Assembly (NCBI GenBank): GCA_902634135.1
Contig: CACPJB010000001.1
Coordinates: 164,106-198,370, forward strand
Length of the DNA: 34,265 bases
Origin: an uncultured Marinoscillum sp.
Lineage (GTDB): Bacteria; Bacteroidota; Bacteroidia; Cytophagales; MED-G16
Reading direction: 5' to 3'
Shown: one piece after another, positions 25,573-33,750 of the stretch
How the letters are laid out: every line of letters starts with the position of its first letter
Numbering within the stretch: the stretch's first letter is position 1
Position numbers and translations under genes: made by a program
Notes under the pieces: model-generated
Database searches by the model: none
Told to the model about the DNA's origin: nothing
The model's input: the letters and a program-made list of their open reading frames with translations, nothing else

Positions 25573-26497
25573 TATTTAAAATTTTAATTGAACTAATTTC
25601 ATCTTTTATTAATTGAGTTTTAAGTTCTTCTAATGAATTAAACTTAGATTCATCTCTTATTTTATCAATCAAAATGATTTTTAAAGTTTTTTCATAAAGA
25701 TTGAAATTGATACCAAAGATATGTATTTCCACTCTTCTTTCTTTACCATCAACCGTAGGTCTGATTCCTATATTTAGCATTCCTCCGAAATACTTTTTAT
25801 TTAATAAAATTTTACAAACATAAACTCCATTTCCAGGAATAATTTTTCCATCATTAATTAGAGATAAATTTGCAGTTGGATAACCAATTTTTTTCCCAAT
25901 TCCATCACCTTTTATAACATTACCTGTGATAAAAAAATCATAACCAAGCATATTATTTGCTTTTTTTAGGTTTCCAGTTAGTATTTCTTTTCTTATAGAA
26001 GATGAACTTATTTCAAAATTTTTATTTATTTCCTTCTTTTTTATTTCTTGTATTTTAAAATCAAATTTTTCTTTATTATTTTCTAGATAATGAAAGTTAC
26101 CCTCTCTATTGTGTCCAAAACTGTGATTGAAGCCAATAATTAACTTGTTAATATTTAATTTTTTAATTAAATATTGTTGAATAAATGATTCAGCCTTTAT
26201 TTTGGAAAATTCTTTTGTAAACTCAATCAAATAGATAAAATCTATTCCTTCTTTTTCTAAATAATCCATTTTATCATTCTTACTAAGAAGAAATTCTATA
26301 TTGGAATTTTTATCTAATACTGTTTTTGGATGTGGCCAAAATGTAATTAGAATACTTTTACCTTTTTTTAATTTTGCTTGAGTTACTAATTCTGTTATTA
26401 TTTTCTTATGTCCAAGATGGATTCCATCAAAATATCCAATGGTAGCTATCGAATAACCTTTAATGTTAATTTTTGATGTACTTTTAATAATTTTCAA
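25559..26497 (-). CDS. ribF: Bifunctional riboflavin kinase/FAD synthetase
   Basis: SIATIGYFDGIHLGHKKII, ITFWPHPKTVL, GFNHSFGHNREGN, GKKIGYPTANLSL, GVYVCKI…GMLNIGIRPTV. Confidence 0.96.
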   Translation of the reverse strand: MKIIKSTSKINIKGYSIATIGYFDGIHLGHKKIITELVTQAKLKKGKSILITFWPHPKTVLDKNSNIEFLLSKNDKMDYLEKEGIDFIYLIEFTKEFSKIKAESFIQQYLIKKLNINKLIIGFNHSFGHNREGNFHYLENNKEKFDFKIQEIKKKEINKNFEISSSSIRKEILTGNLKKANNMLGYDFFITGNVIKGDGIGKKIGYPTANLSLINDGKIIPGNGVYVCKILLNKKYFGGMLNIGIRPTVDGKERRVEIHIFGINFNLYEKTLKIILIDKIRDESKFNSLEELKTQLIKDEISSIKILNNEKV

Positions 26498-27176
26498 TTT
26501 TTTCTTTTTTTAAATTTTGAACTAAAATATTTATTCTTAAAGCATTATGCACATCATAATTACCAATCATGGTTCTTCTAAGTTTAGAGAGAACTGCTCC
26601 GCAACCTAATTTTTTACCAAAATCTCTTGCAATAGATCTTATATATGTTCCTTTTGTACACGTTATCTTAAAACTAATGTTTGGGAAATTAATTTTTGAG
26701 ATTTCAAATCTTAGGATATTTATTTTTTTTTCTTTTATTTCTATGTTTTCATTTTGTCTTGCATATTCATATGCTCTTTTTCCATTAATTTTAACTGCGG
26801 AAAATTTTGGTGGTCTTTGAAGTTGTTCTCCTAGAAAATTAAAACTTAAATTTTTAATCTTTTCTTCAGTTATTTCGGTTATATCATAAGTTTTATTAAA
26901 CTCAGTTTCTAGGTCATGAGAAGGTGTTGTTTTTCCTAAAATAAATTCACCTGTATACTCTTTATTTAGATTTTGGATATCATTAATTTTTTTTGTGTTT
27001 TTTCCTGTACAAATAATGAGAAGTCCTGTTGCTAGAGGATCTAAAGTACCAGCATGTCCTACTTTTTTACATTTTATAACATTTTTTAGTTTTTTTACTA
27101 CATCAAATGAAGTCCAATCAAGATCTTTATCAATTAATAAAGTTTGTCCTTTGTTATATTTTTCTAAAAAGCTCAT
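26484..27176 (-). CDS. truB: tRNA pseudouridine(55) synthase
   Basis: LIDKDLDWTSFDVVKKL, KVGHAGTLDPLATGLLIICTGKNTK, RPPKFSAVKINGKRAYEYAR, CTKGTYIRSIARDFGKKLGCGAVLSKLRRT. Confidence 0.97.
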   Translation of the reverse strand: MSFLEKYNKGQTLLIDKDLDWTSFDVVKKLKNVIKCKKVGHAGTLDPLATGLLIICTGKNTKKINDIQNLNKEYTGEFILGKTTPSHDLETEFNKTYDITEITEEKIKNLSFNFLGEQLQRPPKFSAVKINGKRAYEYARQNENIEIKEKKINILRFEISKINFPNISFKITCTKGTYIRSIARDFGKKLGCGAVLSKLRRTMIGNYDVHNALRINILVQNLKKEKIENY

Positions 27177-27238: not shown

Positions 27239-28633
27239 ATGAAAAGATATTTGCTCTTTTTTTTTATTATAATCTCCAATGACATTCTCTGTCAAAAGAT
27301 AAAAAGTCAAAAGGGTTTATCATTAAATATCGTAAAAAAAATAGATTTTTCGTCAGTTTTCAATTCTACTGATAATCAAATAGGAGATTATATTATTAAA
27401 AGTTTAGAAAATAAAGGAATAGCAGTTTCAGATGATGAAAGATATTTTATTTCTGTTTCTTTTGGTTGGAAATATAAAAGATCTACAGAATTAGAAATTG
27501 ATAATTTTAAAGGTTTTATTATTGATAAAAAAAATGGAGAAAAAGTTGTAGCAGAATTTTCTTTATCTAAAATTAAAAATCTTAAGCAATCCATTAATCT
27601 TCTTGTTGATAATCTTCTACATAAAAATAATTTAGTAGGTGAAGATGGAAAATTTATTGATATTCAAGACCATTTTATGAAGATGAATATGAAGATGTGG
27701 GATTCTTCCAGGCCAGATTCTCATGCTCCATCAGGCGTAGATGCAGATCATGTCCATACTAAAGGTGGAATAATGATAGGATATAAATTTATTTCATCTC
27801 AAGGTAAAGGAAGCTATAATGATGATACTAGATACGATAGAAACAAAATATTTTCATATTACATGAGAAATGTCATTTCTCAAAAAATTGATAAACATTC
27901 TCTTGAGATAATGTATGGCATTTCAAATTTTCTTACCCTATATTCAAATCTAAGTTTTTTTAAAAAAGAAACTTCATATGAATCTCTTGAAAATGAATTA
28001 AGTAATTTATTTACATCAGGATTTGGAGATATAGATGTTCAATCCTTATACAGTATAATAAGTAAAAAGAATATAAAGCTACATTCAAATTTTGGCTTTA
28101 TTATTCCATCAGGTAGTATTGAAAAGAAAAATAAATTAAATATGATGCCATACTCAATGCAAATTGGATCTGGTCATATGTCTATTCTATCAGGCTTTAC
28201 ATCTTTATTTCAATTGAAAAAAATTTCAGGTGGATTTCAACCAATCTATTCATTTAGAGTTGGAAAAAACTCTAGGGGTTATGCTCAAGGTAATTTATTG
28301 GATATTAATTATTGGGTAGCATTGAAGCTTACCAACTCACTTAGTTTAAGTATAAGACAGAATTATATTAATCTTAAAAAAATTTCAGGTGCAGATAGTG
28401 ACCTTAATAAAAGTTTAATGATTATAAATAACAATAATAATTCAGGAAATGTATTACTAAACTCATCTTTAGGATTAAATCTAGCAATTAAGAAAGGAGT
28501 GTTTAGAAATACAAGAATTTCTTTAGAGTATTCTGTACCAAGTTATATGAGTTATAATGGTCTGCAAGTTGGAAGTTTTAATGACTTTATTTTAAATTTA
28601 CAGTATAGTCCTAACGGACATAAAAATCATTAA
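27239..28633 (+). CDS. Secreted outer-membrane beta-barrel (transporter-like) protein with HAPxGVDADHxHxKG motif
   Basis: Signal peptide. Central DSHAPSGVDADHVHTKGGIMIGYKFISSQGKG resembles 'APxGVMGDHxHxKGEWMxSYRxM' proteins found near metal-related genes. C-terminal amphipathic beta-barrel-like strands. The N-terminal ~130 aa is a separate domain I cannot assign. Confidence 0.65.
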   Translation: MKRYLLFFFIIISNDILCQKIKSQKGLSLNIVKKIDFSSVFNSTDNQIGDYIIKSLENKGIAVSDDERYFISVSFGWKYKRSTELEIDNFKGFIIDKKNGEKVVAEFSLSKIKNLKQSINLLVDNLLHKNNLVGEDGKFIDIQDHFMKMNMKMWDSSRPDSHAPSGVDADHVHTKGGIMIGYKFISSQGKGSYNDDTRYDRNKIFSYYMRNVISQKIDKHSLEIMYGISNFLTLYSNLSFFKKETSYESLENELSNLFTSGFGDIDVQSLYSIISKKNIKLHSNFGFIIPSGSIEKKNKLNMMPYSMQIGSGHMSILSGFTSLFQLKKISGGFQPIYSFRVGKNSRGYAQGNLLDINYWVALKLTNSLSLSIRQNYINLKKISGADSDLNKSLMIINNNNNSGNVLLNSSLGLNLAIKKGVFRNTRISLEYSVPSYMSYNGLQVGSFNDFILNLQYSPNGHKNH

Positions 28634-28635
28634 TA

Positions 28636-29064
28636 ATGAGATATATTTTTTTACTTTTTTTATTCATTTCATGTTCAACAGACAACTCGCTTCATGAATC
28701 AAATATGGAATTAGTCGAGGATATTATTTTTAAACATGATCAACTTATGATAGAAATGAAAAACATTAAAAAAATTAAAAATACTTTAAGTGAATTAGAT
28801 GAAAATTTTGATGTTGAAGATGCTATGAAGAATTTAGATGATGCACATAAATCGATGATGAATTTTATGAAAGAATTTAGTGATGAATTTTCTTTTGATA
28901 AGTATCCAATGAATAAAAAAACTTATCAGAATTTAGATAAGATTGATATAAAATCTGTAAATGATAGATTGAATGAATTTTCTAAATATATTAATGATGT
29001 TTCTGAGAAATTTTCATCAAGTATAAGTCAGGGAAATAAGATATTAGATGTTACTTCTAAGTGA
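28636..29064 (+). CDS. Small helical lipoprotein of unknown function
   Basis: MRYIFLLFLFISCSTDNS (SPII lipobox) then a Lys/Glu-rich helical region. Starts 2 bp after the upstream stop, so probably co-transcribed. Confidence 0.7.
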   Translation: MRYIFLLFLFISCSTDNSLHESNMELVEDIIFKHDQLMIEMKNIKKIKNTLSELDENFDVEDAMKNLDDAHKSMMNFMKEFSDEFSFDKYPMNKKTYQNLDKIDIKSVNDRLNEFSKYINDVSEKFSSSISQGNKILDVTSK

Positions 29065-30513
29065 ATCAAGTTCTGAAAAAGAATAATTTAAAATGCCTGA
29101 TTCACATTCGTTAAAATTGAAATGCCACCATTCAAATTCATAGACTGAAAACTTATTTTTTTTCATAATTGATATTAACATATCTCTTACATCCCTTTGT
29201 TTTTTTGTTCCTCCTGTATAGCTTGGATATGCTTTTTCTGTAAATTCATCATATCCTGAAATCATTTCAAAAACTTCTCCACTTTTTATCTCATATAAAC
29301 CTATATCTATAGCACATCCTTTGTTATGTACCGACCCGTTTGAAGGATCTGCTACAAAATGTTTTAAGTCATCAGGTGTTCCTTCCCAAAACATTTTTGT
29401 AATAAACCATGGTCTATACGCATCATAAATTACTATTCCATATCCTTTATTTTTTAATTCTTTATTTGCTTTAATAAGATATGATGCTGCGTCTTTGTTA
29501 AGAAAAGCTCTTGGTTCTTGATAAAAAATAGATCTCATAAAATTATTATTAGAAGCATATCTTATATCTAACCTAAAATCATTGTTTAGTTTTTCAAGAT
29601 CAACTAAATTTTTAAAAGAATTAGTGCTATCAAGTTTAGGAGGAGTTGAATTTATAGCAATTTCTCTGATCTCACTTATTGTTTTAGTTGGATTAATATA
29701 GAAAGTTTTTTCTTTGTCATTGCAACCAAAAAAAATTCCAATTGATCCAACAAGTAAACAGTAGAAAGAAAAATAGATAAGCTTACTTTCTTTGACGATT
29801 TTTAGCATAAGCTTACAAGCTAAAATACCACTAAATAGAGCTGATATAAATCCTATTAAATACGGAAATGATATTATGTTTTGATAAATAATATCTGAGT
29901 TTGATAACCCATTAATAATTTTTAAAATTAAGATTCCAAAAATAGGAACTAATACCATCAAAAATGAAAATTTTGTTGCTTCTTCCTTGTTAATTTTTAG
30001 TAGTAATGCTACTGATATTGTTGCACCTGATCTTGAAATACCAGGAAAAATTGCAAGAGCTTGAGCAAGACCTATTATAATAGCATGTAAATAACTTATA
30101 TTATTTTTATTATTTTCTTTACTGAAATAGGTAAAAAAAAGAAGTAATGAAGTTATGATAAGCATACTTCCAACAAGAAAAATATTTCCATTAAAAAGTG
30201 ACTCTACTTCATTTTCATATAATAATCCAACTATGCCAATTGGAATACTTGATATTAATATTTTAATTACCAGGCTTAAATATTTCTTCTCACCAATAAA
30301 AAATCCTTTTATAATTTTTAGAATATCATACTTAAAAACATAAATTATACTAATAGCAGTAGCTATATGAACTAGAATAGTGAAGGAAAGATTATCTTTT
30401 TGATTGGTGTTTAAAATAAAAGATGCCAGTTCTAAATGGCCACTACTACTGATTGGAAGAAATTCAGTTAAACCTTGAATTATTCCTAGTATAAGAGCTT
30501 CATGCCATTCCAT
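29044..30513 (-). CDS. Fusion protein: UppP/BacA undecaprenyl-diphosphatase (aa 1-~263) + VanX-type M15D D-Ala-D-Ala dipeptidase (aa ~264-489)
   Basis: UppP part: GIIQGLTEFLPISSSGHL, FPGISRSGATISVALLLKINKEEATKFSFLM. VanX part: IVIYDAYRPW, SVHNKGCAIDIGLY (SxHxxGxAxD zinc motif), FEWWHFNF (ExWH). Single open frame with no stop. Confidence 0.92.
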   Translation of the reverse strand: MEWHEALILGIIQGLTEFLPISSSGHLELASFILNTNQKDNLSFTILVHIATAISIIYVFKYDILKIIKGFFIGEKKYLSLVIKILISSIPIGIVGLLYENEVESLFNGNIFLVGSMLIITSLLLFFTYFSKENNKNNISYLHAIIIGLAQALAIFPGISRSGATISVALLLKINKEEATKFSFLMVLVPIFGILILKIINGLSNSDIIYQNIISFPYLIGFISALFSGILACKLMLKIVKESKLIYFSFYCLLVGSIGIFFGCNDKEKTFYINPTKTISEIREIAINSTPPKLDSTNSFKNLVDLEKLNNDFRLDIRYASNNNFMRSIFYQEPRAFLNKDAASYLIKANKELKNKGYGIVIYDAYRPWFITKMFWEGTPDDLKHFVADPSNGSVHNKGCAIDIGLYEIKSGEVFEMISGYDEFTEKAYPSYTGGTKKQRDVRDMLISIMKKNKFSVYEFEWWHFNFNECESGILNYSFSELDSLRSNI

Positions 30514-30516
30514 TTT

Positions 30517-30723
30517 CTATTTCCCTTTATAAAAAATGGCAAAAAATTGAAATATAAAACCAAAGAGCACAATTATAGGTCCCAATGTTAATCCTAAAAA
30601 TCCATATCCGTACTCTTCATTATCAAGGGTCATAATAAAGAAACCCATAAAAATTATTATTATACCTATAATCATAAGTTTGTAATTACTTTTATTAAAA
30701 GGTAGATTAGATTTATTTTTCAT
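30517..30723 (-). CDS. DUF3098 small membrane protein
   Basis: FNKSNYKLMIIGIIIIFMGFFIMTLDNEEYGYGFLGLTLGPIIVLFGFIFQFFAIFYK, next to ftsX as usual in Bacteroidota. Confidence 0.88.
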   Translation of the reverse strand: MKNKSNLPFNKSNYKLMIIGIIIIFMGFFIMTLDNEEYGYGFLGLTLGPIIVLFGFIFQFFAIFYKGK

Positions 30724-31619
30724 TACTTATATAAGTCATCTAAGGAAGAGTTCAAATACTTATTTACAGATGTGTAAGTACTTATCATAACAATTAGTAC
30801 ACCAGCTATTATTAATGAGATAAATATAATACTTAATTTTTCAAAGCCTATAATCATATTAGTTTCATTTATTTTTTCATTAATTAAAATTACTATAGAA
30901 TATAAGATTCCTGATGCTAATACTCCAGATATAAATCCATAAGCTATCCCCCTTATTATAAATGGTTTTAAAATATAGTTTGCAGTTGCACCAACAAGCT
31001 GCATACTTCTGATTAAAAATCTTTGTGAGAAAAGTGCTATTCTTAGTGTATTATTAATTAGAATAACTGAAATGATAAATAATATGAAAAATATTCCAAC
31101 AAACACTAAACTTATATTTCTCACATTTGAATTAATATCATTAATCATCTCTTTTGAATAATCTACTTCATAAACTCCGGGAATTTTAAGTATATCACTT
31201 TCAATATTTGAGAGCTTTTCTTTCTCAAAAAAATCAGAATTTATTTTTAGAATTATAAGATCTCTTAAAGGATTATTTCCTAAAAAACTTACAAAATCTT
31301 CTCCAATTTCTTTTGAAAATTCTTTTGCAGCATCTGAACTTGATATATAGGTTAAAGTGGACTCATCTTTTTTTAGAACATAATTTTTTGTAAATAAGGT
31401 CCTTTTAATTTGATCAACTTGATTTAAAGATATTTCTTTATTTAAAAAAATGTTTATTTCTGTATTTTCTTGAATTATTTTCTTCACTTCAATAGAGGAA
31501 AGTAAAAAGAAACTAAATATGCCCAAAAGTAGAAGAGAAAGAGAAACACTAAATATTACACTTAAAAAAGGGAAATTCCCAAATGTTTTTTTTGCAATTT
31601 TCTTTCTCTTCTTATACAT
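30723..31619 (-). CDS. ftsX: Cell division protein FtsX (ABC permease)
   Basis: Start moved to MYKKRKKIAKKTFGNFPFLSV (ATG at 31619). EVKKIIQENTEINIFLNKEIS, PLRDLIILKINSDFF, four TM helices, RSMQLVGATANYILKPFIIRGIAYG. Confidence 0.92.
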   Translation of the reverse strand: MYKKRKKIAKKTFGNFPFLSVIFSVSLSLLLLGIFSFFLLSSIEVKKIIQENTEINIFLNKEISLNQVDQIKRTLFTKNYVLKKDESTLTYISSSDAAKEFSKEIGEDFVSFLGNNPLRDLIILKINSDFFEKEKLSNIESDILKIPGVYEVDYSKEMINDINSNVRNISLVFVGIFFILFIISVILINNTLRIALFSQRFLIRSMQLVGATANYILKPFIIRGIAYGFISGVLASGILYSIVILINEKINETNMIIGFEKLSIIFISLIIAGVLIVMISTYTSVNKYLNSSLDDLYK

Positions 31620-31626
31620 GATACAG

Positions 31627-33750
31627 TTATACCAATAGAGGAGCAATAACTAAAGCAACTACTGATATTAGTTTAAGTAATATATTTAGTGAAGGACCAG
31701 ATGTATCTTTAAATGGATCGCCAACTGTATCACCTACGACTGCAGCCTTATGTGCTTCTGTTCCCTTATTTCCAGCTTCTTCGATCATTTTTTTAGCATT
31801 ATCCCAAGCTCCACCAGCATTAGATTGAAAAATAGCCATTAGAACTCCTGAAGATGTAACTCCAGCTAATAAACCACCTAACATCTCAGCACCCCCACCG
31901 AATCCAATTGCTACAGGTACTAGTATAGCCATTAGACCTGGCAATATCATTTCTCTTAGAGCAGCTTGAGTTGATATTTCAACACATTTGCTATACTCTG
32001 CAACACCGTCTGCTTCATTGAAAATTTTCATATCAGCTTTTGTGGCTTTTGAAAGATCTGAGTCATATTTTCTCATAACCTTTAAAGCTGCCTTTAATTT
32101 TGGGAGTTCATTGAATTGTCTTCTTACTTCTTCAATCATACTCATTGCTGCTTTACCAACTGCATTCATAGACAATGCAGAGAACACAAAAGGAAGCATC
32201 GCTCCTATAAGTAATCCAGTCATAACTACAGGGTTTGATATATCAATTGATGTTATTTGAGCAGTTTGCATAAATGCTGCAAATAGAGCTAAAGCCGTTA
32301 GAGCTGCAGATGCAATAGCAAAACCTTTTCCGATCGCTGCAGTTGTATTTCCGACAGCATCAAGTTTGTCAGTTCTTTCTCTTACCTTAGGTGGAAGCTC
32401 AGCCATTTCTGCTATACCACCAGCATTATCTGATATTGGCCCATATGCATCAACAGCAAGTTGAATTCCAGTATTAGCTAACATCCCTACTGCAGCAATA
32501 GCAATACCATAAAGACCAGCATAACTAAATGAAATTAGAATTGCAGCGCATATTAGTAATATTGGAATTGCAGTTGACATCATACCAACTCCAAGACCAG
32601 ATATAATTGTAGTTGCAGCACCAGTGTCTGACTGTTTAACTATTGATTTTACAGGACTTTTGCCAGTTGCAGTATAGTATTCTGTAATTTTTCCAACACC
32701 TAGTCCAGCTAAAAGTCCAGCTAAAGTAGCATAGAAAACACCTATTGATGTATATTCTATTCCATTAAAAACCCATGTTTCTGGTAAAAAGAAATTGATC
32801 AAATAGAAAGTAGCAGCTATCATTAAACCAGCGGAAACAAATTCACCAGTATTTAAAGCTTTATGAGGGCTTCCACCTTCTTTTACTCTTACAAAAAAAG
32901 TTCCAATTATTGACATGATAATTCCTGTTGAGGCAATGAACAATGGTAGTAAAATTGCATTAGTTTCATTTCCAGAAAATTCTTGTAAACCAACAAATGC
33001 AGCTCCTAAAACCATGGCTCCAATTATAGAACCAACAAATGATTCAAAAAGATCTGCTCCCATACCTGCAACATCACCTACATTATCACCTACATTATCT
33101 GCAATTGTTGCTGGATTTAGAGGATGATCTTCTGGGATTCCTGCTTCAACTTTACCAACTAGGTCAGCACCAACATCTGCTGCCTTTGTATATATTCCTC
33201 CACCGACTCTAGCAAATAGTGCTATAGAAGAAGCACCTAATGAAAATCCAGAGATTACCTTAATTACAGTATCAAGTTCTTTAAACATATTTTGATAAAT
33301 TAGAAAAAGAGATCCTAGTCCAAGAACACCAAGTCCTACAACACCAAGTCCCATTACTGCACCACCTGAAAAAGCAATTTCTAGTGCTTTCCCAAGAGAA
33401 TGTTGAGCTGCATTAGTAGTTCTAACGTTTGCTTTAGTTGCTACTTTCATTCCTATAAATCCAGCTAATCCTGAACATAAAGCTCCAACAACAAAAGAAA
33501 CTCCAACTAGGTAACTAGTTCCTTCACTAATTCCCTTAAAGCCAAGAAGAATTGCTGTTCCAATTACAAAAATTGATAATATTTTATATTCAGCTCTTAA
33601 AAATGCCATCGCACCATCAGAGATGTTTTTAGCAATTCTTTCCATTTTTTCAGAGCCAACTTCTTTAGATGCAACCCAATTATTTTTAAAATATACAAAT
33701 AAGAGTGCTAAGATACCCGCACCAGGTATGAAATATAGTATGTTGTCCAT
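31627..33750 (-). CDS. hppA: Membrane-bound ion-translocating pyrophosphatase
   Basis: [121 protein letters not shown]. Confidence 0.98.

Follow-up and report, generated by a model that had tools for sequence, protein, structure and literature searches.

VanX-like D-Ala-D-Ala dipeptidases are known chiefly from vancomycin resistance; VanX itself is a cytoplasmic enzyme, and enzymes of its type are dipeptide-specific. The M15 family to which they belong also includes the VanY and VanXY carboxypeptidases (PMC6403190). For UppP, the undecaprenyl-pyrophosphate (C55-PP) phosphatase, the closest described system is E. coli BacA, whose N- and C-termini have both been assigned to the periplasm and for which Glu21, Ser27 and Arg174 were named as catalytic residues in the paper describing its structure (PMC5852022).

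The initial annotation of a 34,265-nucleotide stretch of Bacteroidota DNA (the window) proposed that one of its genes is a natural fusion of these two enzymes, UppP and an M15 dipeptidase of the VanX type, and was unaware of any described example; our own search of open-access papers likewise turned up no account of one. The proposal itself is borne out: the fusion is conserved, both catalytic sets are intact in 13 species, and it is a new domain architecture made of known enzymes.

Domain architecture of the fusion protein

Positions 29044-30513 of the minus strand read as a single unbroken ATG-to-TAA frame of 489 aa, in which complete UppP/BacA and M15 domains are joined by a linker of ~38 residues. 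The features of the gene, in coordinates of the window, are:

29044-30513, minus strand: uppP-dipeptidase fusion gene, 489 aa, ATG to TAA (frame, two Pfam domains, identical frame in 12 further species)
29728-30513, minus strand: UppP/BacA domain, residues 1-262, through the last transmembrane helix (PF02673, AlphaFold2 half against 5oon/6fmt, C-terminal helix aligning with the ends of unfused UppP)
30430-30477, minus strand: UppP motif 1, QGLTEFLPISSSGHLE, residues 13-28 (Glu17 and Ser23 correspond to E. coli Glu21 and Ser27)
30013-30045, minus strand: UppP motif 2, PGISRSGATIS, residues 157-167 (Arg161 corresponds to E. coli Arg174)
29614-29727, minus strand: junction and linker, residues 263-300 (begins at the native UppP end and bears the FxIxP...PP leader of the dipeptidase subfamily)
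29047-29613, minus strand: putative D-Ala-D-Ala dipeptidase domain (M15, DdpX/VanX-like), residues 301-489 (PF01427, NF007557, 1r44 VanX)
29410-29424, minus strand: DAYRP motif, residues 364-368 (Arg367 corresponds to VanX Arg71)
29305-29334, minus strand: zinc motif SVHNKGCAID, residues 394-403 (His396 and Asp403 correspond to VanX His116 and Asp123; invariant in 13 species)
29122-29133, minus strand: EWWH motif, residues 461-464 (Glu461 and His464 correspond to VanX Glu181 and His184; invariant in 13 species)

In Pfam searches, PF02673 (BacA) covers residues 6-257 of the protein with essentially its whole profile (positions 1-256 of 257, E 1.1e-69) and scores 235 bits against a curated cut-off of 33.4. 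The top NCBIfam match of this half is UppP TIGR00753 (3e-53, under the equivalog cut-off), and its PDB sequence matches are E. coli BacA (5oon, 6cb2). The UppP half of our AlphaFold2 model is good, ends in a helix at residues 245-264, and matches 5oon/6fmt with E about 1e-8 and TMt 0.79-0.83, in agreement with the interdigitated inverted-repeat fold. Glu17, Ser23 and Arg161, which lie in the two motifs, are invariant in the 13 fusions. The full-length domain, the motifs, the catalytic Glu/Ser/Arg and the predicted fold are common to this half and E. coli BacA; the fusion differs from it in that its C-terminus runs on for ~227 residues into an enzyme domain, and in having Gln13 in place of E. 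coli Glu17, a proposed Ca ligand. Gln13 is invariant in all 27 sequences of our alignment A2, 25 of which are ordinary unfused UppP, and we take this position, given as E/Q in the literature, not to be a defining requirement for UppP.

The C-terminal half is matched by PF01427 (Peptidase_M15) over residues 302-468 (E 9.4e-28; 97.8 bits, cut-off 27), with DdpX NF007557 as its top NCBIfam match (2e-36) and VanX (1r44) as its PDB sequence match. It falls under the NCBIfam equivalog cut-offs for both (125 vs 176 bits for DdpX, 74 vs 320 bits for VanX), a pattern that points to a relative of DdpX and VanX that is filed as neither named equivalog. VanX has His116, Asp123 and His184 as Zn ligands and Glu181 and Arg71 as catalytic residues, and all five have counterparts (His396, Asp403, His464, Glu461 and Arg367) that are invariant in the 13 species. 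The fused dipeptidase thus shares with DdpX and VanX (M15D) the Zn ligands, the catalytic Glu and Arg and a whole-domain match, whereas it is joined to a polytopic membrane enzyme and predicted to be periplasmic, unlike the cytoplasmic VanX. Just two sequences covered this region for AlphaFold2, so the dipeptidase half is poorly modelled (pLDDT mostly 30-60) and gives no basis for inter-domain geometry. Judged from sequence, the two halves clearly belong to their broad Pfam families and score under the NCBIfam equivalog cut-offs. Mutated catalytic residues had been named in advance as evidence against the fusion; the residues are intact, 11 of 11 checked positions being identical across the 13 species.

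NG86 estimates of dN/dS across the ten closest species pairs are about 0.06-0.16 in the UppP half and about 0.04-0.14 in the dipeptidase half, and these low values (0.04-0.16) indicate that both halves are maintained by purifying selection. Between residues 237 and 325 of the window protein, ATG, GTG and TTG are all absent in frame, and the linker has no start codon common to all species. The dipeptidase should therefore be made solely within the fusion, and its separate translation from an internal start is unlikely.

Distribution and genomic context

The full protein is found in one frame, with no internal stops, in 12 other species of the window's family, a small one of ocean bacteria, at 59-71% identity. 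All of them read through the junction, which excludes the stop or frameshift that the initial annotation had suggested looking for at 29650-29830. The window's own genome is fragmented (0.96 Mb in 56 contigs, 55% complete), which would be compatible with a sequencing or assembly artefact joining two genes, but the identical frame in these other species already refutes that explanation.

Our search sample for the fusion comprised 98 genomes, the window's own and relatives. Thirteen of the 15 genomes of the window's family, spanning three genera, carry the fusion with all checked catalytic residues intact. Profile searches of these 15 found each domain in 13 genomes, every match lying within the fused frame, and found no separate copy of either the UppP or the dipeptidase domain. 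In the two genomes where the fusion was not seen, ftsX is cut at base 1 of its contig (G006) or missing (G007), so the fusion region is probably unassembled in both; true loss is not supported. One genome (G001) holds the fusion twice, once complete (L008, contig G001:C2) and once as a partial copy at a contig end (L047, G001:C28); the two sequences differ slightly, and probably reflect a strain mixture in the assembly.

Outside the family, no fused frame was found in the other 83 genomes of the order within those 98, among 396 genomes of the phylum, or among the best 80 of 589 relatives. Among the matches listed for 391 genomes of the order, nearly every dipeptidase frame from outside the family is about 190-340 aa long; for four longer ones (405-682 aa), UppP lies elsewhere in the genome or there is no in-frame UppP match. 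Viral copies were also looked for and none were found. As far as sampled, the fusion is confined to the window's family within the Bacteroidota genomes covered. The possibility raised at the outset, that close relatives all have two separate genes, is therefore contradicted within the family and true outside it.

The gene order in most Bacteroidota loci examined is ftsX-DUF3098-uppP-truB, with truB directly after uppP. The fusion gene has the same conserved ftsX-DUF3098-uppP position as UppP/BacA genes, and in the window's family uppP is separated from truB by the dipeptidase and two convergent genes. The neighbours in the window are:

30723-31646, minus strand: FtsX-like gene, conserved upstream neighbour (named after its presumed family and by synteny across the phylum, rather than by profile)
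30517-30723, minus strand: DUF3098 small membrane protein, conserved upstream neighbour (PF11297, synteny)
27239-29064, plus strand: two convergent genes (464 aa and 142 aa), adjoining the fusion in all 13 species
26484-27176, minus strand: truB (PF01509, synteny)

The full uppP-to-truB arrangement was seen in the window and in one other locus (L050); the remaining loci are shorter and end before truB. The 464-aa protein has a weak PF13557 (Phenol_MetA_deg-type) match and the 142-aa protein has no Pfam match; in the window, the gene for the latter overlaps the 3′ end of the fusion gene by 21 bases. Within one relative (G002, locus L006), FtsX is 89% identical to that of the window and 128 adjoining residues of the next gene match at 100%, whereas the fusion next to FtsX is just 69% identical to the window's, a contrast that may be explained by recombination or a mosaic assembly.

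Origin of the fusion

The last transmembrane helix of the fused UppP aligns with the end of unfused UppP: one unfused protein (L015) ends 12 residues past a conserved YC pair, which is where the window protein reaches Cys264. From residue 271 on, the fusion carries the FxIxP...PP leader of the dipeptidase subfamily. This end alignment and the leader together indicate that the junction was made at the native end of a complete UppP, and that the dipeptidase attached there had lost its signal sequence.

In our trees, the fused UppP halves form one clade (100/99) among sequences of the order and of other Bacteroidota. The fused dipeptidases also form one clade (100/100), which stands away from the main dipeptidase clade of its own order and groups (99/97) with a subfamily sampled in other parts of the phylum; this exported subfamily occurs mainly outside the window's order. 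That grouping disfavours vertical inheritance from the order's own dipeptidases. The trees fit a scenario in which the dipeptidase was gained horizontally and then fused in a single event; alternatively, its origin may lie in an old dipeptidase paralogy with losses. Separately, two contigs labelled SAR92 (Gammaproteobacteria; L112 and L123) carry a UppP that falls inside a Bacteroidota clade, reflecting either gene transfer or contamination.

Frames of 770-860 aa from other families in the phylum (L149, L150, L151, L152, L153, L155 and L156) likewise end in a dipeptidase of the nearest subfamily. For the two frames that were checked against Pfam (L151, 799 aa, and L152, 778 aa), the N-terminal part is a PF00144 beta-lactamase-type domain. 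Like the fusion, these are two-enzyme proteins with a dipeptidase of this subfamily as the C-terminal member; they differ in the partner, which is a serine hydrolase-type domain there and UppP here.

Probable topology and proposed function

The initial annotation had made its functional proposal depend on the UppP C-terminus facing the periplasm. That orientation is supported by the topology of E. coli BacA (PMC5852022) and by the lipoprotein-type signals of standalone relatives, several of the nearest of which (L157, L161, L168) have lipoprotein-like N-termini. By analogy with the periplasmic C-terminus of BacA, the dipeptidase most likely lies in the periplasm, with UppP holding it at the membrane. 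Such a site makes sense because a cytoplasmic dipeptidase would attack the D-Ala-D-Ala made by Ddl (D-Ala-D-Ala ligase), for which 11 of the 15 genomes of the window's family give a strong match.

We consider it reasonably probable that the protein is a bifunctional envelope enzyme, in which UppP recycles the carrier and a tethered periplasmic D-dipeptidase cleaves D-dipeptides released by turnover. The N-terminal half, the sole BacA-type C55-PP phosphatase detected in the family's genomes, would recycle the lipid carrier at the periplasmic face, and its periplasmic C-terminus would continue into a zinc dipeptidase of the DdpX/VanX type. The latter would once have been exported separately, and UppP would now stand in for its signal peptide or lipid anchor, serving as a housekeeping phosphatase and as an export and anchor module. 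The dipeptidase would then cleave free D-Ala-D-Ala or similar D-dipeptides from periplasmic wall turnover, yielding D-alanine. The periplasmic site of the dipeptidase, the activity of both halves, the dipeptidase substrate and salvage as the purpose are what we infer here. UppP need not be the only C55-PP phosphatase, since most genomes of the family encode a small PAP2-family protein (about 190 aa) that could also dephosphorylate C55-PP. The dipeptidase substrate is uncertain because, to our knowledge, free periplasmic D-Ala-D-Ala is no major known product of wall turnover.

Alternative explanations

A different account would have UppP provide export and a tether only, with the two enzymes working independently and the fusion a product of chance fixation in a small genome, their proximity bringing no advantage. 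We regard this as possible but rather doubtful. It is consistent with the single fusion origin at the native UppP end and with the retained leader of the dipeptidase subfamily, and also with the linker, which is variable in length and, in some species pairs, less constrained than the domains (for the L013/L014 pair, dN/dS is about 0.32 for the linker vs 0.14-0.16 for the domains); the varying length and this elevated value argue against a precise inter-domain arrangement. Retention over three genera, however, is compatible with a benefit, without requiring one. The fusion could also be a lineage-wide bifunctional wall enzyme that sites the hydrolysis of D-Ala-D-Ala or stem peptides where undecaprenyl-pyrophosphate is recycled, with the two reactions linked physically and perhaps kinetically, which we think unlikely. 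The coupling of carrier recycling to D-Ala-D-Ala turnover and the effect on the glycopeptide or bacitracin response that were originally suggested are speculation.

It is quite improbable that the protein is a processed polyprotein, in which the final helix of UppP serves as an internal signal and the dipeptidase is freed by a protease (e.g., lipoprotein signal peptidase, acting at Cys264). Such processing would account for the cysteine that follows the last UppP helix in 7 of the 13 species (e.g., ISGC in L012) and for the lipobox-like cysteines found at about the same place, before FxIxP, in the relatives L168 (LTAC) and L161 (LSAC), but the cysteine is replaced by Ser or Phe in the other six species, the residues preceding Cys264 in the window (FFG) make a poor lipobox, and the unfused L015 protein ends in GS at the Cys264 position, implying that this residue may be native to UppP. 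With the cysteine in just 7 of 13 species, an internal lipobox with cleavage is a weak candidate. Cys264 itself (about 29722-29724) may either be left over from a lipoprotein signal or belong to UppP natively. We judge it highly improbable that the dipeptidase half acts on another substrate, for instance as a D,D-carboxypeptidase on stem pentapeptides near nascent peptidoglycan, trimming new wall at the site of UppP. Carboxypeptidases of the VanY/VanXY kind do belong to M15 (PMC6403190), and relatives in the subfamily are fused to the PF00144 serine hydrolase-type domain; nevertheless, the NCBIfam matches to DdpX (2e-36) and VanX (1e-20) are far above that to VanXY (4e-4). The dipeptide specificity of VanX-type enzymes also speaks against such a role.

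Implications

Long-lived, intact two-enzyme fusions often mean that both activities belong together in place or amount, and here a housekeeping lipid-carrier enzyme, the sole BacA-type copy detected in the lineage, is tied to a predicted D-Ala-D-Ala dipeptidase. On the comparative evidence from sequences, we regard the fusion as real, conserved and moderately surprising, and its function as predicted. Should UppP be an anchor only, the protein would neatly illustrate how genes fuse in small marine genomes; should both halves work, it would be a concrete tool for asking what role exported VanX-like dipeptidases play in Gram-negative envelopes.
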